Positions 22,185 through 49,583 of a DNA stretch of 64,000 bases are shown here, one piece after another. The translations under genes were made by a program, and so were the position numbers. The first letter of the stretch is position 1. The number at the start of each line of letters is the position of its first letter. The notes under the pieces are model-generated. The model was not told the origin of the DNA and made no database searches. It worked only from the letters and a program-made list of their open reading frames with translations. The stretch is taken from assembly GCF_004138485.1 (NCBI RefSeq), contig NZ_RYEV01000005.1, forward strand, positions 854,827 to 918,826. Reading direction: 5' to 3'. This DNA is from Peristeroidobacter soli. GTDB lineage: Bacteria; Pseudomonadota; Gammaproteobacteria; Steroidobacterales; Steroidobacteraceae.

Positions 22185-22204
22185 TTGCCTTTCTTGAAAT
22201 CGAC
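22185..22204 (+). promoter_or_regulatory. Shared 20-bp box, copy 1 (upstream of FAD oxidoreductase operon)
   Basis: TTGC-N7-TTGAAATCGAC, ending 56 bases before ATG 22261. The 11-base core is identical to three other copies at 29239-29258, 41416-41435 and 41337-41356 (minus strand). The upstream half is less well conserved here than in the other copies. It may be a promoter element or an operator. Confidence 0.6.
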
Positions 22205-22260
22205 AGCGTCGAGGTCGTTGCTCATCATTCCACCACGTCCTGGGGGCGGTGGTGGAGAGC

Positions 22261-23388
22261 ATGCAAGCGGATATCACGATCATCGGTGGAGGAATGGCGG
22301 GGGCGGCCGCGGCGTACTTTCTGTCGCGCGGTGCCGCTGTGGTTCTGCTCGAACGGGAGGAGGCTGCCGGGCTGCATAGCTCCGGGCGCTCGTCGGAACA
22401 GTTCACGGTCGGTATCAGTGCCGACACGATGCGCCGTCTGGCGCAGGCGAGCCGGCCATTCCTGGAGAATCCTCCGGGGGGTTTTGCGCCGCTGCCGCTG
22501 TTGGCCTCGCGCGGTTGTCTCACGGTGGGCCGGGCCGATCAGCAGGCTTCGTTGCAGCGCTTGTATGGCAGGTTGACCGGAGTGGGCGCCGAGGCGCGCT
22601 ACGTCGACCGCAACGAAGCACTTCAATTGTTTCCGGCGCTGCGCGCGGAAAAGTTCGATAGCGGTGTGCTCGAGCCCGGTGCGATGGACATCGACGTCAA
22701 CACGCTGTTGCAGGCCTACTTGCGCGGCGCCAGGGCGAACGGCGCAAAGATACTCACGAATGCCGGCGCCAACGCCATCGAGCGCAAGTCTGGCAAATGG
22801 ATCGTGACGACTCCGGTGGGTGAAGTCGTATCTTCCATGGTTCTCAATGCAGCCGGCGCATGGGTCGACGACATCACCCGGCTCGCGGGTCTCGCGCCGA
22901 TCGGCCTGACGCCGCATCGACGCACCGCTTTCACGTTCCTGCCGACCGGCATCGATGCGTCACGCTGGCCGCACGTCAGCAACGTCGACTATCGCTGGTA
23001 TGTGAGTCCTCGCGGCGACAGCCTGGTCGGCAGTCTGGCCGACGCGGTGCCCGTGCCGCCGGGCGACGTCTATCCGGACGATATGGACGTTGCCCAGGGC
23101 ATCGAGAACATCGAGCAGGACACGACGTTCAAGATCGATCGACCGCTCAGCAAGTGGGCCGGCCTGCGCAACTTCGTCGCCGACAAAAATCCTGTGTGCG
23201 GGACGCGCGTGGAGGCCGAGGGCTTCTTCTGGCTGGCCGGTCAGGGCGGCTGTGGAATTCTCACTTCACCGGCGCTGGGCCAGGCAGTGGCTGCATTGAT
23301 GTCTGGCCGCGAACTGCCGGAAGAACAACGCACGCTGGGCCTCACGGCAGAGGCTCTTTCACCGAGTCGTAAAGAGTTGCAGTCATGA
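22261..23388 (+). CDS. FAD-dependent amine/amino acid oxidoreductase (DAO family)
   Basis: A 375-residue flavoenzyme with an N-terminal dinucleotide-binding motif ADITIIGGGMAGAAAAYFLSRG and the DAO-family end WLAGQGGCGILTSPALGQ. Family members oxidise D-amino acids, glycine, sarcosine or related amines to imines. ATG 22261 was chosen because GGAG stands just upstream; GTG 22249 is also in frame. The stop overlaps the RidA gene by four bases, which suits an enzyme whose imine product is cleared by RidA. The exact substrate is unknown. Confidence 0.87.
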   Translation: MQADITIIGGGMAGAAAAYFLSRGAAVVLLEREEAAGLHSSGRSSEQFTVGISADTMRRLAQASRPFLENPPGGFAPLPLLASRGCLTVGRADQQASLQRLYGRLTGVGAEARYVDRNEALQLFPALRAEKFDSGVLEPGAMDIDVNTLLQAYLRGARANGAKILTNAGANAIERKSGKWIVTTPVGEVVSSMVLNAAGAWVDDITRLAGLAPIGLTPHRRTAFTFLPTGIDASRWPHVSNVDYRWYVSPRGDSLVGSLADAVPVPPGDVYPDDMDVAQGIENIEQDTTFKIDRPLSKWAGLRNFVADKNPVCGTRVEAEGFFWLAGQGGCGILTSPALGQAVAALMSGRELPEEQRTLGLTAEALSPSRKELQS

Positions 23389-23774
23389 CCCGTCGTCACA
23401 TCTCCTCCGGCAGCGAGTTCGAGCGTACTTACAGTTACAGCCGCGCAATCGTGCTCGGCAATCATGTCTTGGTCTCCGGCACGACCGGTTACAACTACGC
23501 CACCAGTACCCTCGCGGAGGGTGCGCACGATCAGACTGTGCAGCTGTTTCGCAACGTCGAGTCCGCGCTGGCACAAGCCGGTGCGACGCTGAAGGACGTG
23601 ATCCGGGTGCGCATGTATATCGCGCGGCCGGAGGACTACGAAACGATCATGCAGGTGTTCGCACGGACGTTTGCAGGGATCGATCCAACGTGCACGACGG
23701 TGCAGGCCGGGTTGTTCGATCCCGCGATCCGCATCGAGATGGACATGGATGCAGCGATCAATGCGGGCACTTAG
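23385..23774 (+). CDS. RidA family enamine/imine deaminase
   Basis: A 129-residue protein of the Rid (YjgF/YER057c/UK114) family. Visible family features are SGTTGYN near residue 30, the stretch VESALAQAGATLKDVIRVRMYIA, and TCTTVQAGLFDPAIRIEMDMDAAI at the end. Rid proteins hydrolyse reactive enamines and imines made by amino acid-oxidising enzymes. It lies between two FAD oxidoreductase genes, overlapping the first by 4 and the second by 14 bases. Confidence 0.9.
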   Translation: MTRRHISSGSEFERTYSYSRAIVLGNHVLVSGTTGYNYATSTLAEGAHDQTVQLFRNVESALAQAGATLKDVIRVRMYIARPEDYETIMQVFARTFAGIDPTCTTVQAGLFDPAIRIEMDMDAAINAGT

Positions 23775-25116
23775 TCTCTATCCTCACATTCCCGATGATG
23801 TGCTGGCGCGCATCGGCCCCCGGCCCAGCGTGTTCCCAAAGTCGGCCGATGTGGTGATCGTTGGCGGCGGCATCATGGGCTCGGCTGCGGCGTATTACCT
23901 TGCCAAGGCCGGCGTCGACGTGGTCCTGGTCGAGAAGGACAAAGTCGCGGCTCAGCAATCGGGGCGCAATTGGGGCTTCGTGCGCACCCAATATCGCGAT
24001 CCGGCCGAGCTGCCGCTGGCGGTCGAGGCGCTCTCGCTGTGGCCCACGCTCGAGCAGGAGCTCGGCTCGCAACTCGCCTGGCGGCGCACCGGTTGTATCT
24101 TTCTGGCGCAGAGCGAAGCCGAGCTCGAGCAGTTCGAACAATGGCTGAATCTGACATGCTATATCGCGACCGACGCCCGCATGCTCTCGGGGCGCGAAGT
24201 GGCGGCGCTCATGCCGGCGTTGCGTGTCAAAGCGGCTGGCGCGCTGTACACGCGCTCGGACGGACAGGCCGAGCCGGGGTTGGCGACGACGGCTTTTGCA
24301 CGCGCGGCCGAGAGCCTGGGCGCACAGATCCTGGAAGACTGCGGCGCGCTGGCGATCGATGCATCGGCCGGTGCGATCACGGGCGTGCTGACCGAGCATG
24401 GCTTCATCCGCTCGAACATGGTGATCTGCGCGGCCGGCGCCCACTCGCATCGTCTGCTCGGCAAGCTCGATTTGTTTCTGCCGCAGCAAGTGGTACGGAG
24501 CACCGTCTCACTCACGTCGCCGGCGCCGATGATCAGCGAAGCTTGTTTCTGCGGCTACGGCCTCGGTTTGCGACAGCGGCCCGACGGCTCGTGCATCGTC
24601 GCGGCAGAGTCGCTCTCGGATGTCGATCTCACATTGGATTCGATGCGCTCGGCGCGTTATTTCATTCCCGAGTTGTTACGCAACTGGCGCACGTTCTCGT
24701 TTCGTTTCGGCCGTCCGTTCATCGACGATCTGCACCGTCGACTCACCTTGCCGAAAGAGCGGCTGGCGCTGGAGCCGCGCCGTCCGCTCATCGCGCCGAA
24801 TCGCAAGCGTGCCGCGAACAACGTCGGGTTGTTCCACGGTTTATTCGGTGGCGCGCACGACGTTGCCATCGTCAAGTCCTGGGCCGGGCAGATCGACGTG
24901 CTGCCCGATGCGTTGCCGGTCATCGATACGCCGGCGGCGGTGCGCGGCTTGATCGTGGCGACGGGATTTTCCGGTCACGGCTTCGGGCTCGGCCCGGCGG
25001 TCGGCAAGAACGTCGCGACGCTTGCCATGGGCGCGACCCCGAACGACGCGCTCAAGCCGCTGCGCCTGGAGCGATTCGCACTCGGCGAGTACGGGCGTTC
25101 TCATGCGCCGTTGTAG
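23761..25116 (+). CDS. FAD-dependent oxidoreductase, DadA-like
   Basis: A 451-residue DAO-family flavoenzyme. The FAD-binding motif VVIVGGGIMGSAAAYYLAKAGVDVVLVEKD begins near residue 31, and the C-terminal VATGFSGHGFGLGPAVGKNVA completes the FAD domain. It resembles D-amino acid dehydrogenase and related amine oxidases; a role in polyamine-type oxidation is also possible given the aldehyde dehydrogenase that follows. ATG 23761 lies inside ridA; ATG 23749 is an alternative. It differs clearly in length and sequence from the oxidoreductase at 22261, so the two are not a recent duplication. Confidence 0.87.
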   Translation: MRALSLYPHIPDDVLARIGPRPSVFPKSADVVIVGGGIMGSAAAYYLAKAGVDVVLVEKDKVAAQQSGRNWGFVRTQYRDPAELPLAVEALSLWPTLEQELGSQLAWRRTGCIFLAQSEAELEQFEQWLNLTCYIATDARMLSGREVAALMPALRVKAAGALYTRSDGQAEPGLATTAFARAAESLGAQILEDCGALAIDASAGAITGVLTEHGFIRSNMVICAAGAHSHRLLGKLDLFLPQQVVRSTVSLTSPAPMISEACFCGYGLGLRQRPDGSCIVAAESLSDVDLTLDSMRSARYFIPELLRNWRTFSFRFGRPFIDDLHRRLTLPKERLALEPRRPLIAPNRKRAANNVGLFHGLFGGAHDVAIVKSWAGQIDVLPDALPVIDTPAAVRGLIVATGFSGHGFGLGPAVGKNVATLAMGATPNDALKPLRLERFALGEYGRSHAPL

Positions 25117-25144
25117 CGGCGCGCATTCGAGACGGGAGGCTGCT

Positions 25145-26653
25145 ATGAACGAGCAAGATCGAAGCTACTACGCACGCGTGGCGCAAAGTGTGCGCTTGCC
25201 GGGGGCGATGGCCTTTATCGACGGCGCATACGTCGCACCGGCGTCGGGGGGCGTCATGGAGACGCGCAATCCGGCGACGGGGGAGGTCATCGGTACCGTC
25301 GCTGATTGTCAGGTCGCGGATGTGGATCGCGCGGTCGCCGCTGCCAGGCGAGCGTTCAACGACGGCGCGTGGTCGCGTTCGGCGCCCGAGGAACGCAAGC
25401 GTGTACTGCTGCGACTGGCACATCTGGTTCGCGCGCACAGCGAGCGACTCGCGGTGCTCGAAAGCCTCGACAGCGGCAAGCCCATTCGCGATTGTCTGCG
25501 CGAGATCGGGACCGAAGTGCCGGCGACGTTCGAATGGTATGCCGAGCTGATCGACAAGACGTTCGGCAAAGTGGCACCGACCGGCGCCGACGCCTGCGCG
25601 CTCATCATCAAAGAGCCGCTGGGCGTGGCCGGGCTGGTGCTGCCCTGGAATTTCCCGTTGCTGATGGCGGCCTGGAAGCTGGCGCCGGCGCTCGCTAGCG
25701 GTTGCTCGGCGGTGGTGAAGCCGGCGGAACAAACATCCTTGTCGACGCTGCGGCTCGCTGAGCTTGCGATGGAGGCGGGCTTGCCGCCGGGCGTACTGAA
25801 TGTGGTGCCGGGGATGGGTGAGAGCGCGGGCCGCGCGATCGGTTGCCACAATGACATCGACGTGGTGTCGTTCACCGGCTCGACCGAAGTCGGTCGTTAT
25901 TTCCTGCGCTATTCGAGCGACAGCAACCTGAAGCCGGTGGGCCTGGAAATGGGCGGCAAGAGCCCGTTCATCGTGCTGGCGGACGCCCCGGTCACCGAGG
26001 AGCTGATCGAAAACGCGATCACCTCGGCGTTCTGGAACGGCGGGCAGAATTGTTCGGCCAATATGCGCCAGCTCGTCGATGTCGCGGTTCGCGAGGAATT
26101 CCTGCAGCGGGTGGTCGAGCGCGCCGGGCGCATCGTGGTCGGCGATCCACTCGATCCGCGAACCCAGCTCGGCCCCATGATCACCCCGGAGCATCGCGAT
26201 CGAGTGCTCGGCTACGTGGCGCAAGGCAAGGCCGAAGGCGCGCAGCTGGCGCTCGATCTGGCTCATGCCCATGACGACCGCCCCGGCTGGTTCGTCGGGC
26301 CGACGGTGTTCTCCAGCATGAGTGCCGACATGAAGATCGCGCGGGAGGAAATCTTCGGACCGGTGCTGGGCGTGATCGGGGTGCGCGGGCTCGAGGAGGC
26401 GTTGGCGGTGGCCAACGACACCGAATATGGCCTGCACGCGACGGTCTACACGCGCGATTTGAACAATGCGCTGGTGGCTGCCCGGCGGCTGGCCTGTGGG
26501 ACGGTCGCCATCAACGGCTTCACCGAAGGCGACATCAAGACGCCCTTTGGCGGCTACAAACGATCCGGCTCGCTGGCGCGGGACAAGGGAACCGAGGCCA
26601 TGGATCAGTACCTGCAGGCGAAGACCGTCTGGATGACGGTGCGGCAGCCGTGA
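25145..26653 (+). CDS. NAD(P)-dependent aldehyde dehydrogenase
   Basis: A 502-residue enzyme of the ALDH superfamily that oxidises an aldehyde to a carboxylic acid. Catalytic Cys303 is in GGQNCSANMR and Glu268 in LEMGGKSP. The oxyanion Asn is in LPWNFPLLMAAWKLAPAL and the coenzyme loop in FTGSTEVGRY. It resembles the gamma-glutamyl-gamma-aminobutyraldehyde and betaine aldehyde dehydrogenase groups. ATG 25145 has a GGGAGG sequence upstream. As the last gene after two amine/amino acid oxidases, it would handle aldehydes from oxidative deamination. Confidence 0.92.
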   Translation: MNEQDRSYYARVAQSVRLPGAMAFIDGAYVAPASGGVMETRNPATGEVIGTVADCQVADVDRAVAAARRAFNDGAWSRSAPEERKRVLLRLAHLVRAHSERLAVLESLDSGKPIRDCLREIGTEVPATFEWYAELIDKTFGKVAPTGADACALIIKEPLGVAGLVLPWNFPLLMAAWKLAPALASGCSAVVKPAEQTSLSTLRLAELAMEAGLPPGVLNVVPGMGESAGRAIGCHNDIDVVSFTGSTEVGRYFLRYSSDSNLKPVGLEMGGKSPFIVLADAPVTEELIENAITSAFWNGGQNCSANMRQLVDVAVREEFLQRVVERAGRIVVGDPLDPRTQLGPMITPEHRDRVLGYVAQGKAEGAQLALDLAHAHDDRPGWFVGPTVFSSMSADMKIAREEIFGPVLGVIGVRGLEEALAVANDTEYGLHATVYTRDLNNALVAARRLACGTVAINGFTEGDIKTPFGGYKRSGSLARDKGTEAMDQYLQAKTVWMTVRQP

Positions 26654-26735
26654 GTGCGGTGCGCCCTTTGCGCACACAACGGGAGTATCCTTATGATCGG
26701 TTTATCCTCGGCCACCGCACAGAAGATCGCCCGCC

Positions 26736-27644
26736 ATGCCGCGTCGGCTGCCATCGCTGAATGCCCTACGTTGTTTCGAGGTGGTGGCGACCCACCTGAG
26801 CATCAAGAAAGCCGCCGGCACGCTGCGGATCAGCGAAAGCGCCGTCAGTCGCCAGGTGCGCATCCTGGAAGATCAGCTCGGGGTGGCGCTGTTCAATCGC
26901 AACCACAACGGCCTGGAAATCACCGAGGCCGGCAGTGCGCTGGCCGAGAGCGCGCGCGGCGCCTTCGACCAGATCGCGAATACCATCGATTCGTTTCAGC
27001 GCGACCAGGACACCGTGCACATCCGTGTCTTGCCTACTTTCGCGCTCCGCTGGCTGTATCCGCGATTGCAGCGGTTCCAGGCGCAGAATCCGTTGATCCG
27101 GGTGGTCGTGCACACGCGTTGGCACGACATGGTGTCCGGCGACGGCGAGGCGCACCTGGGCATTCGCTATGGGTTGGGCAACTGGGCCGCCGAGCAGGCC
27201 ACCGAGCTGTATCCGGAGTGGCTGACGCCGGTGTGTGCCGCAAGTTATCTCGCCGGCCGCAAGCTGGAATCCGCGCAGGATTTCGAGAAGCTCACGTTGC
27301 TGCATCCGTTGCCGAGCCGGGACGACTGGCGGGTCTGGTCGGAGCGCTGGGGCGGCGGCCGCTTCGACACCAATGGCGGCCTGGATTTCGACGGGCTGGA
27401 TTGGGCGTTGCAGGCGGCGGAGGCCGGCTTCGGCATCGCCATCACGGACGTGGTGCTCGGTCACGATGCTCTCGAATCGGGACAGCTGATAGCACCGGTC
27501 GACAAATGCGTGCCGAGCGACGTGTCGTACTATCTGGTGCGCGCACCCGGTTTATCGGATCGCAGACAGGTGCGTCTGCTGCACGACTGGATCTGCGATG
27601 AGATCAGCGACGCACGCCAGATCATCGAACGTCATACCCATTGA
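26736..27644 (+). CDS. LysR family transcriptional regulator (GcvA-like)
   Basis: A 302-residue regulator with an N-terminal winged helix-turn-helix (LPSLNALRCFEVVATHLSIKKAAGTLRISESAVSRQVRILEDQLG, about 5-50) and a periplasmic-binding-protein-like effector domain. It lies between the oxidoreductase/dehydrogenase operon and the peptide-binding protein, overlapping the latter by 47 bases. It is the nearest candidate to read the shared box found upstream of neighbouring operons. It is only distantly related to the other two LysR proteins in the window. Confidence 0.92.
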   Translation: MPRRLPSLNALRCFEVVATHLSIKKAAGTLRISESAVSRQVRILEDQLGVALFNRNHNGLEITEAGSALAESARGAFDQIANTIDSFQRDQDTVHIRVLPTFALRWLYPRLQRFQAQNPLIRVVVHTRWHDMVSGDGEAHLGIRYGLGNWAAEQATELYPEWLTPVCAASYLAGRKLESAQDFEKLTLLHPLPSRDDWRVWSERWGGGRFDTNGGLDFDGLDWALQAAEAGFGIAITDVVLGHDALESGQLIAPVDKCVPSDVSYYLVRAPGLSDRRQVRLLHDWICDEISDARQIIERHTH

Positions 27645-29217
27645 TGGGCGGCCGTGGCGAGGATGGCAGCACCTGCTGATTGCGCTGGGCGCATTGGCGC
27701 TGCCGCTGTCGGCCTCGGCCGGCGGGTCGGGAGATACGCTGCGTGTGTCCCTCACCTCGGATATCCGGAGCACCAATCCAGGCGTCAACCGCGACGCCAA
27801 TACCGACACCGTGATGATGCATGTCCTGGAAGGACTGGTGGCCTATCGGGAGGATGGCAGCGTCGGGCCGCTGCTTGCCGAATCCATTGAGGTCTCAACA
27901 GACGGCACCGAGTACACCTTTCGCCTGCGACCGCAGGTACCCTTTCACAACGGAGCGTTGCTGACCGCGGACGATGTCGTTTGGTCGTGGCGACGGTATC
28001 TGGATCCGGCCACGGGCTGGAGTTGTTTGAGCGACTTCGACGGCTCACGCGGCCATCGCATCGAGTCGGTGACGGCCGTCGCCGTCGACCGCGTGGTTTT
28101 CAAGCTCAATCGTCCGCAGCCCCTGTTCCTGAGCCAGATGGCGGCGATCCAGTGTGGCGGCGGCGCGATCCTGCATCGCTCCTCGCTCAACGCGGATGGC
28201 AGTTGGAACGCCCCCGTCGCCACCGGGCCTTACCGGCTCGAGACCTGGAAGCGCGGGCAATACATCGACCTGCGTGCCTTCGACGGTTATCGCAGCCGAA
28301 GCGGCCCACGCGACGGCAATACGGGCGGCAAGATCGCGTCGGCAGCTCACGTGCGCTGGCTGATCATTCGCGATAGTGCCGCGCGGCTGGCGGCGCTGGT
28401 GAAGGGCCAGGTGGATGTGATGCCGGAGGTGCCGGCCGCGGAGACGGTGCAACTGCGGCGCATGCCCGGCATCACGCTGATCGCCAAACCGATGCTGGTC
28501 AACTACGCCATCTTGATTCAAGACCAGGCACCGCCGCTGGGCGATGTCCGCATCCGCCGTGCGCTGGCACTCAGCCTCGATCGGACGGCGATCGCCGCGC
28601 TGGTCACCAACGAGGTGGGTGTGGCGAACCCATCGGTCATTCCAAGCTCGAGTCCGTATCACTCGAAGCAGCATTTTGCAGGTGGCGAGCCTGACGTCCC
28701 GCAGGCGCGCGCATTGCTGGCGCAGGCCGGCTATCGAGGCGCGCCGATCGTGCTCACGACCAATCGCCGTTATCCGGCGATGTTCAACCAGGCGTTGCTG
28801 GTGCAGGCGATGGCGCGCCAGGCCGGCATCAATCTGCAGCTCGAAGTGCTGGAATGGGCCACGCAGCTGGATCGTTGGAAGTCGGGCAAATATCAGCTGA
28901 TGTCGTTCGGGTTCACGGCGCGCGCCGATCCGTATCTGAATTACGACGCGATGCTCGGCGATCGCAGCCGCAGCCACACGAAGCTATGGGACAACCCGGT
29001 GGCGCTGGAACTGCAGCGTGCCGCGGGAGAAAGCTCCGATCGGTTGACGCGACAGCAATTGTTCGATCGCATGCACGAGCTGATGATCGCGGACTGTCCG
29101 CTGATCGTGCTGTACAGCCTGTCCGACGTAAATGCCGTGCGCAGCGGCGTGAGCGGCTTCGATTCCTGGGTGTTCGGGCGTGCGCGCCTGTGGGGCGTGC
29201 GCCCGGCATCCAGCTGA
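27598..29217 (+). CDS. Peptide-type ABC transporter substrate-binding protein (DppA/OppA family)
   Basis: A 539-residue periplasmic solute-binding protein, family 5. A signal segment (LLIALGALALPLSASA) lies after an unusual 24-residue leader. The mature part starts DTLRVSLTSDIRSTNPGVNRDANTD and has the family stretch VLEGLVAYREDGSVGPLLAESIEVS. ATG 27598 lies within lysR and there is no good later start before the signal, so the 47-base overlap appears genuine. The matching permeases and ATPase (35753-39306) are about 6.5 kb downstream on the same strand. Confidence 0.88.
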   Translation: MRSATHARSSNVIPIDGRPWRGWQHLLIALGALALPLSASAGGSGDTLRVSLTSDIRSTNPGVNRDANTDTVMMHVLEGLVAYREDGSVGPLLAESIEVSTDGTEYTFRLRPQVPFHNGALLTADDVVWSWRRYLDPATGWSCLSDFDGSRGHRIESVTAVAVDRVVFKLNRPQPLFLSQMAAIQCGGGAILHRSSLNADGSWNAPVATGPYRLETWKRGQYIDLRAFDGYRSRSGPRDGNTGGKIASAAHVRWLIIRDSAARLAALVKGQVDVMPEVPAAETVQLRRMPGITLIAKPMLVNYAILIQDQAPPLGDVRIRRALALSLDRTAIAALVTNEVGVANPSVIPSSSPYHSKQHFAGGEPDVPQARALLAQAGYRGAPIVLTTNRRYPAMFNQALLVQAMARQAGINLQLEVLEWATQLDRWKSGKYQLMSFGFTARADPYLNYDAMLGDRSRSHTKLWDNPVALELQRAAGESSDRLTRQQLFDRMHELMIADCPLIVLYSLSDVNAVRSGVSGFDSWVFGRARLWGVRPASS

Positions 29218-29238
29218 CTCTCATTTTTGCACCCCGCG

Positions 29239-29258
29239 TTGCGGTTATTGAAATCGAC
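29239..29258 (+). promoter_or_regulatory. Shared 20-bp box, copy 2 (upstream of secreted protein/ABC operon)
   Basis: TTGCGGTTATTGAAATCGAC, ending 56 bases before ATG 29315, exactly the same spacing as copy 1 to its gene. The GCGGAT that follows a few bases downstream is shared with copy 3 at 41416. Confidence 0.65.
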
Positions 29259-29314
29259 ACGGGATGCGGATGTTTGATGTAGTGAGCGCACAGAGCACAC
29301 TTGGGGAGACAGCA

Positions 29315-29791
29315 ATGATTCGCAACCGAGACCAGTCCAGAAGAACGGCGCCTCTCGCAACTGCCGTTGCAGTGATGCTCGCCACGCTCACACCGCTCGC
29401 CAGCCTTGCGGGCGAGGACGTCGACAAAGGGCCGGTGTGGCGCACGTGGACCGCGCGCGTTGCCGAAGACAAGATGGACGACTACCTCAACTATCTCACC
29501 AAGGTCTACCAGCACAACATGGCGGCGTGGAAGGCCGCCGGGCTGCTCACCGACTACAAGATCCTGGTCACGCAGCCGCAGGGTGTCGACGATCCGAATA
29601 TTTTCATGATGTTCCAATACAAGAACATGGCGGCGCTGGACGCACCCTCGGCGCTGTGGGCCGAGGCCAGCAAGAAGGCGCTCGATCAGATCAAGGATCC
29701 GGAGGCGCGCAAGCTCATGGAGATCGATTACGAAGCGTGGCGCACGTTCACCGGTTGGGCCCCGACCGCTCGCGAGGTGATACTCAAATAG
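29315..29791 (+). CDS. Exported protein of unknown function
   Basis: A 158-residue protein with a signal peptide (LATAVAVMLATLTPLASLAGED). The mature domain (WRTWTARVAEDKMDDYLNYLTKVYQHNMAAWKAAGLLTDYKIL ... MMFQYKNMAAL) has the alternating pattern of a small dimeric alpha/beta-barrel fold. I do not recognise a named family. GGGGAG lies upstream of ATG 29315. It is the first gene after a shared regulatory box and precedes an ABC-2 exporter operon. A role in binding or sensing the substrate in the periplasm is only a guess. Confidence 0.7.
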   Translation: MIRNRDQSRRTAPLATAVAVMLATLTPLASLAGEDVDKGPVWRTWTARVAEDKMDDYLNYLTKVYQHNMAAWKAAGLLTDYKILVTQPQGVDDPNIFMMFQYKNMAALDAPSALWAEASKKALDQIKDPEARKLMEIDYEAWRTFTGWAPTAREVILK

Positions 29792-29884
29792 GCCGCGAGA
29801 CATTCACTTCGCGAGGACGGGGCACAGGGCGTCGCCGCCGCGAGGCGGCGATGTTTTCAAGAATCGAAGCCGACACGACAGCGC

Positions 29885-30589: not shown

Positions 30590-30600
30590 GGTTGCCCGTC

Positions 30601-33491: not shown

Positions 33492-33506
33492 AGGAGCTTG
33501 CAAGAG

Positions 33507-34649
33507 ATGTCGTCGTCCTATCTGAGCGTTGCGGACTTTCGAACGTTCCTGTCCGGCAACATGCGGCCGGGCGTCGCCGTGCACACGTTCTCACATAGCG
33601 ATCAGATGTTTCCGTCGCGAGAAGTGCGGCGTGCCGGTCCGGTGCGCGTGTTGAGCGCGCGACGGCAGCCGCTTGCGGATGTGAGATTCGAGCAGGAGGG
33701 CCGTGGGTTCGACCTGAACGACTTCCTGGCCACCAACCGGGTGGCAGGACTGCTGGTGCTCAAGGATGGCGACGTCGCGCTCGAGAGCTATGAGTTGGGC
33801 ATCGCTCCGGAGACGCGTTGGGCTTCGTGCTCGATGGCGAAATCGGTGCTGTCGATGCTGGTCGGCGTGGCTGTCCGCGAGGGCGCGATCCGCAGCCTGG
33901 ACGATCTCGCCTCGCGTTACGTGCCGATGCTGGCGAGCGGCGCTTACGAGCAGGTGACCGTCCGTCATCTGTTGACGATGACGACCGCGGTGAGCTGGGA
34001 CGAGACTTACACGAATCCCGAATCGGACCGGCGGCGACTGCTCGAGTGCCAGATGACGCTGCGGCCCGGTGCCGTGATTCGCCACATGAGCTCGTTGCGA
34101 CGCGCCGGTCCGCCGGGCTCGATCTGGAAATACAACACGGGCGATTCGTACGTGCTGGGCGCGGTGATGGAGGCGGCCATCGGCGGTTCGCTGGTCGACT
34201 ATCTCTCCGAGAAAATCTGGGCGCCGGGCGGCATGGAGCGCGATGCCACGTGGTGGCTCGATTCACCCGGTGGCATGGCGGTGGCGGGCAGCGGCATGAG
34301 TGCGACCTTGCGCGACTATGGCCGCTTCGGCCAGATCGTGCTCGAGGGTGGGCGCGTGAACGGCAAGCAGATCGTGCCCGAGAACTGGGTCGCCGAAGGC
34401 GGCGTGCCGCAGATCGTCAGCGGCAGTCCGGTGCCGTATGGCTATCAGTGGTGGATTCCTCCGCAGAGCGAGCCGTTGCACGTCGGTGCCTTCCAGGCTG
34501 AAGGTGTGTTCGGTCAATACATCTACGTGCATCCACGCGAGCGGGTCGTGATCGTTCTGCTCAGTGCGCGCTCGAAGCCGAGCGTGGTATCCCGTGTCGA
34601 GCTGATCGACGAAACATTTTTCGCGGCCGTGGTCCGCGCCCTGCAATAG
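33507..34649 (+). CDS. Beta-lactamase-like serine hydrolase (NylB/EstB type)
   Basis: A 380-residue serine hydrolase of the class C beta-lactamase fold. The nucleophile motif is S109-M-A-K112 in ASCSMAKSVLSMLVG. A candidate second-motif Tyr is in WKYNTGDSYVLGAVMEAA, and GSGMSATLRDYGRFGQ is the usual later segment. Overall arrangement recalls 6-aminohexanoate-dimer hydrolase and esterase EstB, enzymes that cut amide or ester bonds outside the penicillin-binding role. ATG 33507 has AAGGAG ten bases upstream. No signal peptide is evident, so it may be cytoplasmic. It is clearly paralogous to the protein at 46265. Confidence 0.85.
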   Translation: MSSSYLSVADFRTFLSGNMRPGVAVHTFSHSDQMFPSREVRRAGPVRVLSARRQPLADVRFEQEGRGFDLNDFLATNRVAGLLVLKDGDVALESYELGIAPETRWASCSMAKSVLSMLVGVAVREGAIRSLDDLASRYVPMLASGAYEQVTVRHLLTMTTAVSWDETYTNPESDRRRLLECQMTLRPGAVIRHMSSLRRAGPPGSIWKYNTGDSYVLGAVMEAAIGGSLVDYLSEKIWAPGGMERDATWWLDSPGGMAVAGSGMSATLRDYGRFGQIVLEGGRVNGKQIVPENWVAEGGVPQIVSGSPVPYGYQWWIPPQSEPLHVGAFQAEGVFGQYIYVHPRERVVIVLLSARSKPSVVSRVELIDETFFAAVVRALQ

Positions 34650-35753
34650 ATGAAAGCGGCATTCCGAATCTGCCACAAGTATCTGGGGTTGTGCCTCGGC
34701 GCCCTCTGGTTGCTGCAGGCGCTGACCGGAATGCTGCTGGTGTTTCATCGTGAGCTGGATGACGCGTCGTTGCATGCCTCGGGCCGGGCCGTGAACTTTG
34801 CGGTCGTCGATCAGGCCGTCGCGCGAATTGAACGAAGCGCGCCGGCGACCAGGGTGGTCGAGTACTTTGCCAGCGGCGGGGTCGAGGGACAGACCGATTT
34901 GCTGGTCGATCGCGACGGCGCCGCGCGCGAAGTGGTGCGCATCGATGGTGCGACCGGCGACATTCTGCGCACGAGCGCTTGGGAGGAACCTCGTTCACAG
35001 CTCGGCGTGTTTCGCTTCGTGCTGCTGATTCATAAACAACTGCTCGCCGGCAAGGTCGGCGAGTGGCTCATCGGGCTCAGTGGGGTGTTCCTGATCGTGA
35101 GCGTCGCGTTGGGTTTGAAGCTTGCCTGGCCGCCGGCGGGGCAGTGGCGCGCCGCATTGTGGCCACGGCGTGCCAAAGCTCCCGTGGCCAGGGCGTTCGC
35201 GTGGCACAGGGCGCTGGGGCTGTGCCTCGCGCCGTTCGCATTGGTCGTGGCAATCACCGGCAGTCTCATGACGTGGACCAGTGAACTGCCGGCGGCGTTG
35301 CCGACGCCGGCGATGAATCATGCAGTGTCGGCTCGCGATGGGCGCATGATTTCTTCCGCCGCGGCGGTGGAGGTCGCGCGGCGTCTTTATCCGGACGCAG
35401 TGGTCGCAATCGTGTCGATGCCCAGCGCGCGACGCCCGTGGTACTCGATCCGGCTGCGCCAGCCTGGTGAGTTGCGGCAGATCTACGGAACCACGCAGGT
35501 GCGTGTCGATGCGGACACCGGCCAGCCACTGGCGATGGTCGACGCGCTCCGGATGTCGATCTCCGATCGGATGTTCGTCGCACTCTATCCCATTCATTCG
35601 GGAGAGTGGGGCGGTGTGACGACGCGTTTGCTGGCGCTCGTGGTGGGGTTGTGGCTCACGGGCACGATCGTATTCGGGGTGCTGTTATGGAGCGCCCGGC
35701 GGGCGCGCGACGGTGCGAAATCCACGCAGCGATTTGGTGTGAGCTCCGCGTGA
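34650..35753 (+). CDS. PepSY-associated membrane protein
   Basis: A 367-residue inner-membrane protein with four helices: YLGLCLGALWLLQALTGMLLVFHREL near the start, WLIGLSGVFLIVSVALGLKLAW, AFAWHRALGLCLAPFALVVAITGSLMTW, and a last one near the C-terminus (LLALVVGLWLTGTIVFGVLLW). PepSY-like periplasmic parts lie between them. The conserved His residues (HRELDD, LIHKQLLAG, WHRALG, YPIHSGEWGG) are typical of PepSY-TM proteins, which may pass electrons for ferric-siderophore reduction. It starts directly after the hydrolase stop, so the genes are coupled. Confidence 0.85.
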   Translation: MKAAFRICHKYLGLCLGALWLLQALTGMLLVFHRELDDASLHASGRAVNFAVVDQAVARIERSAPATRVVEYFASGGVEGQTDLLVDRDGAAREVVRIDGATGDILRTSAWEEPRSQLGVFRFVLLIHKQLLAGKVGEWLIGLSGVFLIVSVALGLKLAWPPAGQWRAALWPRRAKAPVARAFAWHRALGLCLAPFALVVAITGSLMTWTSELPAALPTPAMNHAVSARDGRMISSAAAVEVARRLYPDAVVAIVSMPSARRPWYSIRLRQPGELRQIYGTTQVRVDADTGQPLAMVDALRMSISDRMFVALYPIHSGEWGGVTTRLLALVVGLWLTGTIVFGVLLWSARRARDGAKSTQRFGVSSA

Positions 35754-36694
35754 TGCGATATCTTCTGCGCCGTCTGGCGCTCACCGTTCCGACGCTGCTG
35801 ATCGTACTGGCGGTCGTGTTCTTCATGATGCGCCTGATTCCCGGCGACCCCGCGCAACTGATGCTGGGCGAAGTGGACGATCCCGAGGCGCTCGCCCGGC
35901 TGCGCGCGCAGTTGGCGCTCGATCAGCCGATCGGCGTTCAGTTCCTGCACTGGCTGTTGCGGTTGGCGCGCGGCGACTTGGGTGTCTCGATCGCGCAGCA
36001 GAGTCCGGTGCTCGATCTGTTGATCCCGAGTTTCGGCGTGACCGCTTCGCTGGTGGTGCCTGCGGTACTGCTGGCGGCATTGATTGCGATTCCCGCCGGA
36101 TCGATCGCGGCCTGGAAACAAAACTCTCGAACCGATGCCGTGATCATGACGGCCGCGACGGTGGCGCTGTCGATTCCAAGCTTCTGGCTGGGTCTGCTGT
36201 TGCTGTTGTTCTTCGGGGTCAAGCTCGACCTGTTGCCAGTCGTGGGATATGTCTCGTTGCTCGAGAACTTTCGCGAGGGTGTGAGTTATCTGGTCATGCC
36301 GGTCATCGCGCTGGCGCTCATCGAGGCCGGCGTGCTGGTGCGGCTGATGCGCTCGAGCACGATCGACGTCGCACGGTTGGAATACATCACCCACGCGCGC
36401 GCCAAAGGATTGCCGGAATTTTCAGTCATGGCGCGCCACGCGCTGCCCAATGCCATGGCGCCGACCTGGACCATGATCGGCCTGACGCTCGGCTCGTTGC
36501 TCGGCGGGGCTGTCGTCACCGAGACGGTGTTTACGCTGCCAGGCCTGGGACGCCTGCTGGTCGAGAGCATCTTCGCCCGCGACTATCCGGTGATTCAGGG
36601 TTGCATGCTGTTCGTGACGCTCGCGTATGTGGTGGTGAACATCATCGTCGAGATGACGTATCCGTTGTTCAGTCCGGCGGTGGAACATGACTGA
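35753..36694 (+). CDS. Peptide ABC transporter permease, DppB-like
   Basis: A 313-residue inner-membrane subunit of a peptide importer. The N-terminus MRYLLRRLALTVPTLLIVLAVVFFMMRLIPGDPA is the signature of DppB/OppB-type permeases, and the EAA coupling loop reads YITHARAKGLPEFSVMARHALPNA. ATG 35753 overlaps the PepSY stop by one base, and the 3' end overlaps the next permease by eight bases. Confidence 0.94.
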   Translation: MRYLLRRLALTVPTLLIVLAVVFFMMRLIPGDPAQLMLGEVDDPEALARLRAQLALDQPIGVQFLHWLLRLARGDLGVSIAQQSPVLDLLIPSFGVTASLVVPAVLLAALIAIPAGSIAAWKQNSRTDAVIMTAATVALSIPSFWLGLLLLLFFGVKLDLLPVVGYVSLLENFREGVSYLVMPVIALALIEAGVLVRLMRSSTIDVARLEYITHARAKGLPEFSVMARHALPNAMAPTWTMIGLTLGSLLGGAVVTETVFTLPGLGRLLVESIFARDYPVIQGCMLFVTLAYVVVNIIVEMTYPLFSPAVEHD

Positions 36695-37523
36695 GCGCTG
36701 GTGGCAGGTGTTCGCCCGGCGTCCGAACGCGGTGGCGGGCGGCGTGCTGATCGCCATCATGCTGAGCGCCGCGTTGGCCGGCATCGTGTACACGCCGTAC
36801 GATCCGGTGGCGATCGATTTTCATCGGCGTCTGAGCGCACCCTCGATGGCGCACTGGCTCGGCACGGACGAGTGGGGGCGCGATGTAATCAGTCGCGTGC
36901 TGTCGGGCGCCGTCGTCAGCGTCGGCATCGCGGCGCTCACGTCGTTGATCGCCACGTCGATCGGTGCGTTGATCGGCGCCGTCTGCGGCTTCTACGGGCG
37001 TTGGATCGACAAGATCGTGATGGCCGTGATGGATGCGCTGCTCGCGTTTCCGTCGCTGATCATGGCGTTGGCGGTGGTGACGGTGTTCGGCGCGGGGCCG
37101 TATACGCCCGTGCTGGCATTGAGCGTCGCTTATCTGCCATCGGTGGTGCGCGTCGTCAGGGCCTCGGTGCTCGGGCTGAAACATCGAGACTTCGTCGATG
37201 CGTCGACCATCATGGGCAACAGCCGCGCCTTCACGCTATTGCGTCACGTGCTCCCGAACACGCTCGCTCCGGTGATCGTGCTCGCCACCTCGATCTTCGG
37301 TTGGGCGCTGCTCGCCGAGAGCGCATTGTCATTTCTCGGGTTGGGGGTGCCGCCGCCCGCGGCGAGTTGGGGAGGCATGCTGGCCGACAGCCGCGTGTAT
37401 TTCGAAGATGCACCCTGGCTCGCGCTCGCGCCCGGGTTCGCGTTGTCGATCTCCTTGCTCGGCGTCAATCTGTTCGGCGATGCCTTGCGCGACTACTTCG
37501 ATCCTCGCATGAAAAATCTTTGA
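36687..37523 (+). CDS. Peptide ABC transporter permease, DppC-like
   Basis: A 278-residue partner permease. Visible features are the DppC-type HWLGTDEWGRDVISRVLSGAVVS segment, the cytoplasmic coupling loop KHRDFVDASTIMGNSRAFTLLRHVLPN, and the late motif ESALSFLGLGVPPPAASWGGML. It overlaps the DppB-like gene and is followed ten bases later by the ATPase gene. Confidence 0.94.
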   Translation: MTERWWQVFARRPNAVAGGVLIAIMLSAALAGIVYTPYDPVAIDFHRRLSAPSMAHWLGTDEWGRDVISRVLSGAVVSVGIAALTSLIATSIGALIGAVCGFYGRWIDKIVMAVMDALLAFPSLIMALAVVTVFGAGPYTPVLALSVAYLPSVVRVVRASVLGLKHRDFVDASTIMGNSRAFTLLRHVLPNTLAPVIVLATSIFGWALLAESALSFLGLGVPPPAASWGGMLADSRVYFEDAPWLALAPGFALSISLLGVNLFGDALRDYFDPRMKNL

Positions 37524-37533
37524 TGAAGAATCC

Positions 37534-39306
37534 ATGAGCCGCGTGCTGACCATCGAGAAACTGAGCATCGACATTCGCGCGGGCGGCGCCGGCACGCGGC
37601 GCGTCGTCAACGACGTGAGTTTGAGTATCGATAGTGGCAGGATTGCGGCGCTGGTCGGCGAATCGGGCAGCGGCAAGACGCTGATCGGCCGCTCGGTCAT
37701 GCGGCTGTTGCCGCCGGTGGCGGCGCTGGTCGGCGGCGATATCGTTTTCAATGGCGCGTCGCTCACGAAGCTCGATGAGACGCAGATGCGCTCGCTGCGC
37801 GGACGGCAGATCGGCGCCGTATTTCAGGAACCCATGGTTTCGTTGAATCCCGCGCTCACCATCGGCTTCCAGATGATGGAGGCGATGCGCTTGCACGAGC
37901 GGGTGTCGCAGGCGGAGGCCAGGCGTCGTTGCATGACGATGCTGGAGAAAGTCAGGATCGTCGATCCGGAAGAAGCGCTGCGAGCCCATCCTCGCCAGTT
38001 CTCCGGCGGCATGCGTCAGAGAATCATGCTGGCGTCGGTGCTGGCGATGCGGCCAAGGCTGCTCATTGCGGATGAACCGACCACCGCGCTCGATGCGCTG
38101 ATCCGCAAGGAGATCATGGATCTCATGGTCGCACTGACGCGCGAGATCGGCACCTCGGTGCTGTTGATCAGCCACGACCTCGCGATGGTGGCGCAATATT
38201 CCGATGACGTGACGGTGTTGCGCCAGGGCGAGACAGTGGAGCAGGGCTCGCCGGCCGGCATGCTGCTGCGTCCGACTCACGAATACACGCGGGCGCTGAT
38301 GGATGCGTTGCCGGCACGCGCTCCGACCAACGGGGTCGTGCGTGCTCCGCTGGTCGAGATCAACGATCTATGCGTGGATTTCCATCGCAAGCGCGGCTTG
38401 CTGTCGCGTCGTGCGGCGGCCAAACGCGCCGTCGACAAAGCGTCTCTGTCCATCTTCGACGGCGAGGTACTGGCAGTCGTCGGGGAGTCCGGCTCGGGCA
38501 AGACCACCATCGGTCGCACGCTGCTGCGACTGTGCGACAGTAGCTCAGGGTCCATCCGTTTCGATGGCCAGGACTTCAACGGCATGGATGCCGACGCCGT
38601 TGCGCGCTTCAGGACCCGCACGCAGATGGTTTTCCAGGATCCATTTTCATCGCTCGATCCGCGAATGACACTCGGTGCGGCTGTGGCGGAGGGGTTGCGG
38701 CACGTCGCCGGCCTCGAGCATGGGGAGCGGCTGCGGCGCGCGGCGGAAATACTGGAGGAGGTTGGCTTGCCCGGCGCCTATGTCGAGCGCTATCCCCATG
38801 AATTGTCCGGCGGCCAGCGTCAGCGCGTGTGCATCGCGCGCGCCGTCGTGGCCCGACCGCGATTCATCGTCGCGGACGAGCCGGTTTCGGCGCTGGATGT
38901 GACGATCCAGCGCCAGGTGCTGAAGTTGCTGACTCAGCTGCAGGAGAAGTACGGGTTCACTTATTTGTTCATCTCGCACGACCTCGGCGTCGTGGAGCAA
39001 ATGGCCGATCGGGTCGCAGTGATGTTTCGTGGCCGGGTGCTGGAAGTCGGCCCGCGCAATACGATCTTCGACTCGCCCCTGCATCCCTACACGATGCGCC
39101 TGTTGGAGGCGACGCCGCGCCTGGTGCGTCGAGCCGACGGCGCGTTCGAGTTGCATACGTTTCCAACGCGCCGTCAGCCGGCGCCTGCCGGCCACGGCTA
39201 TTTCAATAACGGTTGCATTCCGGGCGCGCCTGAATCCGTGGGCGCTCCGCTCATGATCGAGGTGGCTGCGGGTCACAGTGTTTGTTGTGCTCGAGCTGAG
39301 CGATGA
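37534..39306 (+). CDS. Fused peptide ABC transporter ATPase, DppD-DppF type
   Basis: A 590-residue protein carrying two complete nucleotide-binding domains in one chain, as in GsiA or YejF. Domain 1 has Walker A GESGSGKT (about 46-53), signature FSGGMRQR and Walker B LLIADEPTTALD. Domain 2 has Walker A GESGSGKTT (about 317-325), signature LSGGQRQR and Walker B FIVADEPVSALD. An oligopeptide-type C-terminal extension (HPYTMRLLEATPRL ... NNGCIPGAPES) is present but its cysteine pattern looks reduced. The 3' end runs 56 bases into the convergent lyase gene. Confidence 0.94.
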   Translation: MSRVLTIEKLSIDIRAGGAGTRRVVNDVSLSIDSGRIAALVGESGSGKTLIGRSVMRLLPPVAALVGGDIVFNGASLTKLDETQMRSLRGRQIGAVFQEPMVSLNPALTIGFQMMEAMRLHERVSQAEARRRCMTMLEKVRIVDPEEALRAHPRQFSGGMRQRIMLASVLAMRPRLLIADEPTTALDALIRKEIMDLMVALTREIGTSVLLISHDLAMVAQYSDDVTVLRQGETVEQGSPAGMLLRPTHEYTRALMDALPARAPTNGVVRAPLVEINDLCVDFHRKRGLLSRRAAAKRAVDKASLSIFDGEVLAVVGESGSGKTTIGRTLLRLCDSSSGSIRFDGQDFNGMDADAVARFRTRTQMVFQDPFSSLDPRMTLGAAVAEGLRHVAGLEHGERLRRAAEILEEVGLPGAYVERYPHELSGGQRQRVCIARAVVARPRFIVADEPVSALDVTIQRQVLKLLTQLQEKYGFTYLFISHDLGVVEQMADRVAVMFRGRVLEVGPRNTIFDSPLHPYTMRLLEATPRLVRRADGAFELHTFPTRRQPAPAGHGYFNNGCIPGAPESVGAPLMIEVAAGHSVCCARAER

Positions 39307-40138
39307 GTTTCGCGCGTCTCAGTAGCGCGGCGGCTCGAGCCGCGACGGGGCGGTCGACCATGGTGCCATCGACCGAGGTTGCGCCGTCGCCAGCGCTCGC
39401 GGCGAGCACGCGTTCGGCGGCCATGATTTCAGCTGCTGTCGGAGCGAAAGCTTCGTTGAGAATCGGAACCTGCGCTGGATGAATGCACAGTCCGCCGGAT
39501 AGTCCCTGCGCGCGTGCGCGCCGGCAGGCGGCTCGATAATTGTCGAGTTCGCTGAAGTTCGAGTCGATCAGTGAATAGCTGGCTCGTCCTTGCGCCGAGG
39601 CTGCGAGCACCAGCAGCTGCCGCGCCAGTTGTAGCGTCTCGGACCGTGGATCGCAGCCGATGGCGGTCGAGAAATCTTCATCGCCCAGCGCCAGTCCGGC
39701 GATATTCGATTCGCAATCGAGCAGGCCGGAGATGGTCAGCAGGGCGTGGGGGGACTCGATCATGGGCAGCAGCAATGGCTGTCTCTTGTGCATGATCAGC
39801 AGCGACCGTTCCAGATGTCGGATCTGGCGGGCACTCTCCACCTTCGGCAGCACGAAACCCGCGATGCTGGCATGCCCGCAATAGGACAGATCCTGGTCCA
39901 GCGTGGCCAGGTCGGAGCCGACGCGGACCAGAACGTCGATGCCGTGGGATGCCAGCGTGGCCGCGGCGGACGATATCGCCGTGCGCGCCGCCGCTTTGTC
40001 GCGCCAGGAGATGCCATCCTCCAGGTCCAGGATCACTGCGTCAGCGCCGCTGACGCATGCTTTGGAAACATATCGCTCCACATGCGGCGGCACGAACAGG
40101 ATGGATCGCCAGATCGGCGAGCAGGCTGCGGTTTGCAT
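39251..40138 (-). CDS. CitE/HpcH family acyl-CoA lyase
   Basis: A 295-residue TIM-barrel lyase. Family motifs are RSILFVPPHVERYVSKA at the start, AVILDLEDGISWRDKAAAR, VLPKVESARQI, LPMIESPHALLTISGL and LALGDEDFSTAIG with metal-binding acids. Such enzymes split malyl-CoA, citramalyl-CoA or citryl-CoA into acetyl-CoA and a keto acid. The start overlaps the CoA-transferase stop by one base (TGATG), so the two are coupled. Activation of a hydroxy-acid by the transferase and cleavage by this lyase is the likely role, with citramalate or malate as the best guesses. Confidence 0.87.
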   Translation of the reverse strand: MQTAACSPIWRSILFVPPHVERYVSKACVSGADAVILDLEDGISWRDKAAARTAISSAAATLASHGIDVLVRVGSDLATLDQDLSYCGHASIAGFVLPKVESARQIRHLERSLLIMHKRQPLLLPMIESPHALLTISGLLDCESNIAGLALGDEDFSTAIGCDPRSETLQLARQLLVLAASAQGRASYSLIDSNFSELDNYRAACRRARAQGLSGGLCIHPAQVPILNEAFAPTAAEIMAAERVLAASAGDGATSVDGTMVDRPVAARAAALLRRAKLIAQLEHNKHCDPQPPRS

Positions 40139-41301
40139 CAGGAGGCACTCGACTGCTGTCTGGCCCGGCCGAACTCTTGTTCGATCGCGTGAGTATGCTC
40201 GCCACACGCGGGCACTTTCGGAGTGACGCGCGGCGCACTGTCGGAAAAGATGGCCGGCGGCGCCACGATACGCACTGAACCGTTCGGGGTCTCTACACTC
40301 ACGGTGCGCAGGTGAGGATGTGCTGTCGCCTCCGCGAGCGAGTTCAATCGTCCGTGCGCAATGTCCAACTGGCCCAGACGTAGGCTCGCCTCCGCATACG
40401 ATAACCGTGCACAAGTTTCGGCGACGATTGCATCGACCACGGGCCGGTTGGCGACACGCGCCGTGTTGTCACGGAAACGAAGATCCGTGCCGAGCTCGGC
40501 TCGCTGCAGAAAATCCGTGGCAAACGTAGACCACTCGCGGTCATTCTGCACGGAGAGAATCAGCTTCGAGCCGTCGGCACAGTCGAAAACGCCGTAGGGA
40601 GCGATGGTCGGATGCGCGACCCCCACACGTGGCGGCGTACGTCCGCCGTAGAGGTATTGCAACAGCGGCACGCTCATCCATTGCGCCAGACTGTCGAACA
40701 GCGAGACTTGAATGCCGCGCCCGCGCTTCGATCGTGTTCGCGCAAACAGTGCTTGCAGAATCGCGGCATGGGCGGTCACGCCCGCGGCAATGTCGCAAAT
40801 GGAGATGCCGACTCTGGCTGGCTCCGCGCTGCCGGTGATCGAGCACAACCCGACTTCGCCTTGCACGACCAGATCGTACGCCTTCAAATCGGCGCAGGGC
40901 CCGCTCGTACCGAAGCCGGTAATGTCGCAGGTGATGAGTTGCGGATGGCTCGCGCGCAACGCCGCCGAGTCGAACCCCAGGCGAGCCAGCGCTCCGGGCT
41001 TCAAGTTCTGAATGAAAACATCGGCCGCATCGACCAGCGCCGAGAGCAGCTTGCGGCCCCGATCTTCGCGCAGGTCCAGGCAGATCGATTCCTTGCCGGC
41101 GTTCAGCCAGACGAAGTAGGCACTGAGGCCCGCCACGTCACTGTCGTACTTGCGTGCGAAATCTCCCTCCGGGCGCTCCACCTTCAGCACGCGGGCGCCC
41201 GCCTGCGCGAGCAGGCCCGAAGCGAACGGTGCCGCCACCGCCTGTTCGACACTCACCACTGTCAACCCGTCCAGATCCACGATCCTGCTCCCGCTGCGCA
41301 A
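40138..41301 (-). CDS. Class III CoA-transferase (CaiB/BaiF family)
   Basis: A 387-residue enzyme that moves CoA between carboxylic acids. Visible motifs are VVSVEQAVAAPFASGLLAQAGARVLKVERPEGDFAR, NAGKESICLDLR, DVFIQNLKPGALARLGFD and GISICDIAAGVTAHAAILQALFAR, with the conserved Asp expected to form the acyl-anhydride. It starts 15 bases from the left arm of an inverted repeat that it shares with the divergent TonB receptor. The downstream gene is a CitE-type lyase; no enoyl-CoA hydratase lies beside the pair. Confidence 0.9.
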   Translation of the reverse strand: MRSGSRIVDLDGLTVVSVEQAVAAPFASGLLAQAGARVLKVERPEGDFARKYDSDVAGLSAYFVWLNAGKESICLDLREDRGRKLLSALVDAADVFIQNLKPGALARLGFDSAALRASHPQLITCDITGFGTSGPCADLKAYDLVVQGEVGLCSITGSAEPARVGISICDIAAGVTAHAAILQALFARTRSKRGRGIQVSLFDSLAQWMSVPLLQYLYGGRTPPRVGVAHPTIAPYGVFDCADGSKLILSVQNDREWSTFATDFLQRAELGTDLRFRDNTARVANRPVVDAIVAETCARLSYAEASLRLGQLDIAHGRLNSLAEATAHPHLRTVSVETPNGSVRIVAPPAIFSDSAPRVTPKVPACGEHTHAIEQEFGRARQQSSAS

Positions 41302-41336
41302 CGGCGGGCGCTAGCGCACCAGAAACGCGCCGGCGA

Positions 41337-41356
41337 GTCGATTTCAATAAACTCAA
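41337..41356 (-). promoter_or_regulatory. Shared 20-bp box, copy 4 (upstream of CoA-transferase)
   Basis: On the minus strand it reads TTGAGTTTATTGAAATCGAC, ending 35 bases before the CoA-transferase start. It is the core of the left arm of the inverted repeat. Confidence 0.65.
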
Positions 41357-41415
41357 GGCTGGCCACAAAAGCCGAGGGCAGGACGGGCCCTGGCCCAACA
41401 TTTTCGCGCCGACCC

Positions 41416-41435
41416 TTGCGTTAATTGAAATCGAC
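41416..41435 (+). promoter_or_regulatory. Shared 20-bp box, copy 3 (upstream of TonB receptor)
   Basis: TTGCGTTAATTGAAATCGAC, ending 76 bases before ATG 41512; the core of the right arm of the inverted repeat. If TTGAAA were a -35 element, the base run 17 positions later is TTCTGG, which is not a sigma-70 -10 box, so an operator or alternative promoter class is more likely. Confidence 0.65.
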
Positions 41436-49574: not shown

Positions 49575-49583
49575 CGATCGCGC

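Follow-up and report, generated by a model that had tools for sequence, protein, structure and literature searches.

In a window of 64,000 nucleotides from Peristeroidobacter soli (contig NZ_RYEV01000005.1, positions 854,827 to 918,826 of the forward strand), four copies of a conserved box precede the four units of a gene cluster for uptake and catabolism. This box is likely to be the operator of LysR1, a GcvA-like LysR-type regulator encoded at 26736 within the same cluster, through which all four units would be jointly controlled. The box, the core of the cluster and LysR1 are conserved together in 16 genomes, and the box is confined to the cluster where it was sought. Because in other bacteria the box is again found together with these core genes and this regulator gene, its putative role as the docking site of LysR1 is very probable. 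An earlier note on this DNA had proposed a regulatory site linking uptake to catabolism, with the LysR protein encoded at 26736 as a candidate binder, and the comparison across genomes lends support to both proposals.

Box copies in the window

Each copy consists of the core TTGAAATCGAC with matching flanks, at 22185-22204 (+), 29239-29258 (+), 41416-41435 (+) and 41356-41337 (-), exactly where the earlier note had placed four boxes with an identical 11-base core. The four exact occurrences of the 11-mer in 64 kb compare with a mean of 0.03, and a maximum of one, in 100 dinucleotide shuffles, and the statement that the window holds no further copy is correct for exact copies. A matrix built from the four copies scored them at 33-36 bits, with the next-best position in the window reaching 16.4. 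The sequence first described as a 20-bp box is present, but is only part of a longer footprint, as a T-tract approximately 20 bases 5′ of ATTGAAATCGACA is common to all four copies.

Four predicted transcription units, delimited by gene order and strand, lie between 22.2 and 45.1 kb, and each has one box directed at its first gene. Box 1 (22170..22205, +), comprising the T-tract plus CTTGAAATCGACA, is 5′ of the DAO1-RidA-DAO2-ALDH-LysR1-SBP5 unit; box 2 (29224..29259, +) is 5′ of the unit encoding a secreted protein, an ATP-binding cassette (ABC) system, a serine hydrolase, a PepSY protein and DppBCDF; box 3 (41401..41436, +) is 5′ of a TonB receptor-aminotransferase unit; and box 4 (41336..41371, -), divergent from box 3, is 5′ of a unit encoding a coenzyme A (CoA) transferase and an HpcH-type lyase. 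With the start codons that we chose, the core of box 1 ends 56 bases from ATG 22261, and the same distance separates box 2 from ATG 29315 and box 4 from GTG 41280. The equal spacing noted earlier for the first two copies is therefore real, and extends to the fourth if GTG 41280 is its start, but it does not hold generally, because box 3 lies 76 bases from ATG 41512 and the core-to-start distance in six other genomes varies, at about 50-63 bases for RidA and 82-86 for DAO1. A further TTTCTGGTGC, 11 bases past the core, was observed in boxes 3 (41447-41456, +) and 4 (41325-41316, -), and is only vague in boxes 1 and 2.

Conservation of the box with the cluster and LysR1

The cluster could be recovered in other genomes from DNA alone. 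When GTDB contigs were searched for two bare cores in divergent orientation (GTCGATTTCAA-N62..92-TTGAAATCGAC), without any protein information, nine matches were obtained, and five of them lie between divergent orthologues of the flavoenzymes DAO1 (59-61% identity) and DAO2 (62-64%). These are in Bosea lathyri, Bosea UNC402CLCol, Bosea CRIB-10, Bosea Root381 and Rhizobiales AFS063105, the latter placed in the Bosea genus group. The other four (L107, L110, L112 and L115), with no cluster homologue, were taken as chance matches. On one side, the five loci continue from DAO2 to a serine hydrolase (48-52%), with an aldehyde dehydrogenase in between in two of them; on the other, DAO1 is followed by DppB, DppC and LysR1, with a TonB receptor (25-30%) further out. 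DppB and DppC share only 34-41% identity with their window counterparts, and therefore represent an importer of the same kind, rather than clearly the same genes. At L150, the one locus checked with Pfam, RidA was confirmed between the box and DAO2, and a binding protein after DAO1, while start-codon frames of RidA length occupy the RidA position in the six genomes examined.

All five of these genomes encode a LysR1 orthologue (60-62%), and searching with LysR1 alone identified ten more genomes (61-66%), every one of which has both cluster and box. Misses are possible, because scoring in the LysR1 searches was limited to the top few candidates per genome (five in the phylum sample, up to 16 in the organism's own order, six in 347 genomes of Bosea's order and 35 in Bosea). 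An orthologue was carried by 14 of 67 Bosea-genus genomes, and the nine newly found ones all have the cluster and the box. The 347 genomes of the order yielded four matches: G913, already known, G1211 (66%), G962 (46%) and G1037 (44%). The cluster is present in G1211, with exact boxes 5′ of RidA-DAO2 and of a serine hydrolase adjoining LysR1, and a two-mismatch box 5′ of DAO1. In the 20 kb read around each of the G962 and G1037 homologues, neither a box nor another cluster gene is present, bar one two-mismatch match in G1037.

The extended pattern TTYY-N19-ATTGAAATCGACW was found in 14 of the 14 LysR1-bearing Bosea-genus genomes, with 26 matches all within cluster stretches, and was absent from the remaining 53; the reversed control gave no match. 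As the pattern was drawn from sites in those 14 genomes, their complete coverage holds by construction, and the 0/53 is the informative part. LysR1 adjoins DppC in all 15 other box-bearing genomes, such that in these and in the window the regulator gene stands next to or among its putative targets, the arrangement by which a local regulon is recognised. Aldehyde dehydrogenase is present in ten of the 15, one of these being a partial match. The LysR1 proteins are 77-82% identical to that of the window in their DNA-binding part and 54-60% in the remainder. The stretch (V/I)SESAVSRQV(R/K)ILE(D/E)QLG, which probably holds the recognition helix, is common to the 16 box-bearing proteins and altered in the two proteins from stretches without a box.

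Beyond these genomes, LysR1 searches returned only the organism itself among 147 genomes of its own order. Homologues of 35-39% identity in 20 of 398 phylum-sample genomes, a count that takes in its own, and on plasmids (39% at best), were all too distant for use, and no other cluster gene was found in the 19 short phylum-sample loci. One plasmid locus, L103 of Ensifer adhaerens, has its 39% homologue (9001-9915) near Dpp permeases and an aldehyde dehydrogenase, and may represent a distant relative of this module. An ABC permease search matched two other genomes of 274, at 34% identity, and the first scan of genome contigs with the TonB receptor found nothing. The receptor's paralogues (49% at C3:527946 and 31% at C1:716681) and the G008 relative were useless for footprinting, with one stray amidohydrolase match nearby.

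Matrices built from one set of genomes were applied to another. A matrix from 33 foreign sites, with the window excluded, ranked the window's boxes as its top four positions (box 2 at 32.6, box 3 at 27.2, box 1 at 26.6 and box 4 at 13.7), followed by a next-best score of -0.7; since the training sites were chosen by core and a T at -22, the core match adds nothing to this comparison, and it is the flanks and gap that were tested. Conversely, a matrix restricted to the window's own four sites placed boxes at the top of 15 of the 16 fetched stretches, with a margin of 0.4 in L122. In this comparison of the fetched stretches, every matrix match above 9 is 5′ of, and directed at, a cluster gene.

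Leave-one-locus-out matrices, the scores of which leak between near-identical Bosea loci and were not counted as independent, detected a third box 5′ of the TonB receptor in L149-L151, and more weakly in L122, L123, L124 and L126. A third box was likewise found 5′ of a serine hydrolase gene in L130 and L143-L146, and a weak one (4.1) 5′ of the CoA-transferase in L124. These third boxes precede the same functions as the boxes of the window. In L125, L147 and L148 the two flavoenzyme boxes alone pass the threshold, and one match of 5.3 in L150 has no nearby gene. Degenerate boxes at L124:17999 and L124:16693, in which the T-rich start and ATCGAC are kept and the middle of the core is altered, stand 5′ of a TonB receptor and a CoA-transferase, the kinds of gene flanking window boxes 3 and 4.

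The box in its own genome and class

The P. soli genome (9.37 Mb in 17 contigs) contains 19 copies of the bare 11-mer, being the window's four and 15 others, and one of the reversed pattern. When the core is combined with its left flank, only the window's four match at ≤1 mismatch in 9.37 Mb, with three positions at two mismatches. The only flanked copies are therefore these four, all in one cluster, meaning the regulon is local, and a genome-wide regulon is ruled out by the confinement of extended sites (≤1 mismatch) to that cluster. The genome scan proposed earlier would consequently have shown no wide regulon enriched before transport and catabolism operons. The same proposal had held that many genomic copies inside genes or at random positions would count against a regulatory site; the 15 extra 11-mers do exist, but all lack the flanks when checked with the foreign-site matrix. 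That these extra cores lie in open frames was dropped as an argument, as the four boxes too lie in long open frames in this GC-rich DNA.

At ≤1 mismatch, 27 of the 369 genomes in a class sample had a match, and the organism's own was alone in having more than one; the reversed control matched 12 genomes by our count. Apart from a generic ABC ATPase, none of the cluster's genes was found at the 26 other loci, where the best full-matrix scores ranged from -12.3 to 17.8. Two of them contain the exact 20-mer of box 1, on the opposite strand of apparently one shared coding gene, which we take to be that of argininosuccinate synthase. A scan of viral contigs gave one match, and a literature search found no paper describing the box.

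Gene content of the cluster and its neighbourhood

Unit 1 opens with DAO1 (22261..23388, +), a flavin adenine dinucleotide (FAD)-dependent oxidoreductase whose nearest solved structure is the D-arginine dehydrogenase DauA (305 bits), with orthologues of 59-65% identity in the 15 other box-bearing genomes. It is followed by a RidA-like imine deaminase (23385..23774, +; PF01042) and by DAO2 (23671..25116, +), a second FAD oxidoreductase of the sarcosine oxidase/L-amino acid deaminase-like kind, the listed frame of which overlaps RidA, with the real start probably further in. Then come an aldehyde dehydrogenase, ALDH (25022..26653, +; top NCBIfam model PuuC at 507 bits, under the cut-off of 850), LysR1 itself (26736..27644, +), the putative binder of the box, with HTH_1 and LysR substrate-binding domains, and SBP5 (27598..29217, +), a Dpp/Opp-type periplasmic binding protein. 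The LysR1 gene hence sits inside unit 1, among its putative targets.

The first gene of unit 2 encodes a secreted-looking protein of no family (29315..29791, +; scanned as a longer frame from 29264). Downstream are an ABC-2 type ATPase with two permease-like proteins, one of them with DUF3526 (29885..33491, +), the class C beta-lactamase-related serine hydrolase BLA1 (33498..34649, +; solved relatives 8rlj, PIB-1, and 6-aminohexanoate-dimer hydrolase), a PepSY membrane protein (34650..35753, +) and the inner-membrane importer DppB, DppC and DppDF (35606..39306, +). The minus-strand unit encodes an HpcH/HpaI-type lyase and a class III CoA-transferase (39251..41301, -), and the last unit comprises TBDR1, a TonB-dependent siderophore-type receptor (41512..43647, +), and AT3, a class III aminotransferase (43697..45127, +) that scores above the cut-off of the PRK07480 subfamily.

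No box was found in the next block, 45128-60353, which includes two further LysR genes, LysR2 (45128-46084) and LysR3 (59136-60353), whose products are 57% identical to one another. The block also encodes a second serine hydrolase (45% to BLA1), two PD40-amidohydrolases (54-55% mutual identity), a TonB receptor, a PTR2-type transporter and a Peptidase_S58 protein. One region combines a serine hydrolase of the 6-aminohexanoate-dimer hydrolase/PIB-1 kind (33498-34649), an S58 peptidase (57643-59025), an omega-type aminotransferase (43697-45127) and an aldehyde dehydrogenase (25022-26653). These four are presumably the kinds of enzyme that act in nylon-oligomer breakdown.

Discussion

Several observations weigh against an operator for LysR1. 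The 15 extra bare 11-mers in the genome compare with 1.3 predicted by composition, an approximately 12-fold excess, which probably reflects common codons (xTT GAA ATC GAC). The box is asymmetric and offers no clean LysR dyad: T-N11-A spacing occurs at three offsets in all four boxes, and in the best dyads three of 15 column pairs are complementary in all four. The training sites of the foreign matrix were preselected by their core, so the window's core match carries no weight, and its weakest box, box 4, at 13.7 is near a core copy elsewhere in the same genome (L001, 11.6). With the window-only matrix, a non-box position in L123 scored 19.7, against 19.2 and 12.7 for its boxes. The comparison is also partly circular, as the extended pattern was drawn from known sites, and it misses window boxes 1 and 4; furthermore, relatedness among the Bosea genomes means that they do not represent independent events. 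Lastly, the -10 signal is weak at the 17-18 base spacer, and the box co-occurs with the whole core cluster, such that LysR1 is singled out only as the cluster's conserved regulator.

This last point leaves some room for a local operator of another regulator, whether LysR2, LysR3 or one encoded elsewhere: LysR2 adjoins the last boxed unit, and co-occurrence cannot part LysR1 from other cluster genes, or from a further factor in all these genomes. Nevertheless, we consider this improbable, as LysR1 adjoins DppC in all the other box-bearing genomes, whereas separate LysR2-like matches (28-29%) occur only in L143-L146, on the outer side of the cluster. Likewise, the extended box is missing from all 53 Bosea-genus genomes that yielded no LysR1, which ties the box to the cluster, with LysR1 as the cluster's observed regulator. 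Somewhat smaller still is the chance that the box is mainly a promoter element, without a separate operator, in which TCGACA serves as a -35 or as the site of an alternative sigma factor. This hexamer, the nearly invariant 3′ end of the box, matches TTGACA at five of six positions, and 15 of 17 sites have A as its last base. Averaged over 20 non-redundant sites, the -10 score peaks at spacers of 17 and 18 bases, although still negative. However, the 36-base conserved stretch, running from the T-tract through TCGACA, is too long for a -35 alone, conservation of a downstream -10 is weak, and the site is confined to the cluster, with no sigma factor among the cluster proteins scanned.

The position of the box, about 50-86 bases 5′ of start codons, would also suit a leader element or riboswitch acting in RNA. 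This is very improbable, and was rejected on the Rfam scan and fold scores: Rfam had no match near the boxes and none at gathering score in 22000-42000, the four leaders share no common fold (z-scores of -2.6, -0.4, 0.6 and 0.3), and the conservation is of sequence rather than pairing. The further 11-mers in the genome could alternatively make the box appear a chance or duplicated repeat with no function. This deserves scarcely any credence given the shuffled expectation in the window, and the box preceding the same orthologous genes in other genomes despite differences in the remaining intergenic sequence.

If LysR1 does recognise the box, it would bind an asymmetric two-block site that either overlaps the -35 region of each promoter or lies immediately upstream of it; in this site, the T-tract is about two helical turns 5′ of ATTGAAATCGACA. 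The likeness of TCGACA to a -35, together with the spacing to a -10, is no more than suggestive. LysR1 would probably be an activator, rather than a repressor, bound close to each -35. An inducer, probably the imported compound or a breakdown product, would then switch on the four units of the 23 kb cluster together. These would co-induce outer-membrane uptake through the TonB receptor, inner-membrane uptake through Dpp, cleavage by the serine hydrolase, oxidation by the DauA-like oxidase with RidA, the second oxidase and the aldehyde dehydrogenase, and downstream CoA and amino-group chemistry. As the LysR1 gene lies in unit 1, the regulator would control its own gene. More tentatively, this LysR may have moved between lineages together with its targets, with an unusual operator that fuses regulator contact and the -35 (TCGACA) in an asymmetric, nearly invariant ATTGAAATCGACA, two turns downstream of the T-tract.

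The closest described regulator is GcvA of E. coli, the best NCBIfam model for LysR1 at 245.7 bits and its only solved-structure match at E 1e-20 (8y6u); the model score is under the cut-off of 288, such that LysR1 does not qualify as a GcvA orthologue. According to PMC5002191, GcvA regulates multiple units of an amino-acid pathway as well as its own gene, its sites are ATTAG-n5-CTAAT inverted repeats, and gcvA is divergent from gcvB. The GcvA motif as given there (CTAAT/ATTAG-n5-CTAAT) was not seen by eye in the four boxes, which instead have ATTGAAATCGACA and an upstream T-tract, and the LysR1 gene lies within a target unit, unlike the divergent gcvA. In regulon layout, the cluster is likened to PnpR of p-nitrophenol degradation, a single LysR reported to activate several operons of one pathway (PMC5603801), although that system differs in substrate and genes.

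The enzymes resemble those of D-arginine catabolism by DauA and RidA in Pseudomonas aeruginosa, DAO1 being nearest to DauA among solved structures; however, the cluster here adds a peptide-type importer, a serine hydrolase, a second oxidase, a TonB receptor and a LysR. Rid proteins are reported to speed the DauA reaction in vitro (PMC5619798). The substrate is most naturally guessed to be a D-amino-acid- or peptide-like compound, because DAO1 resembles DauA, Rid proteins aid DauA, the serine hydrolase resembles PIB-1 and 6-aminohexanoate-dimer hydrolase, and uptake would be through Dpp and TonB proteins.

The pairing of regulator and operator appears to be new, although a local LysR regulon is, as a kind, ordinary and common. 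It offers a candidate regulator-operator pair for an uncharacterised catabolic module, and suggests a boundary for that module, in which the boxed units belong and their unboxed neighbours do not. The box also provides a sequence signature by which the module may be located in other genomes. If the more tentative reading, of a LysR that moved between lineages with its targets, is correct, a complete uptake-and-oxidation module would arrive with its own self-contained switch, dedicated to an undescribed nutrient of the peptide or D-amino-acid type.

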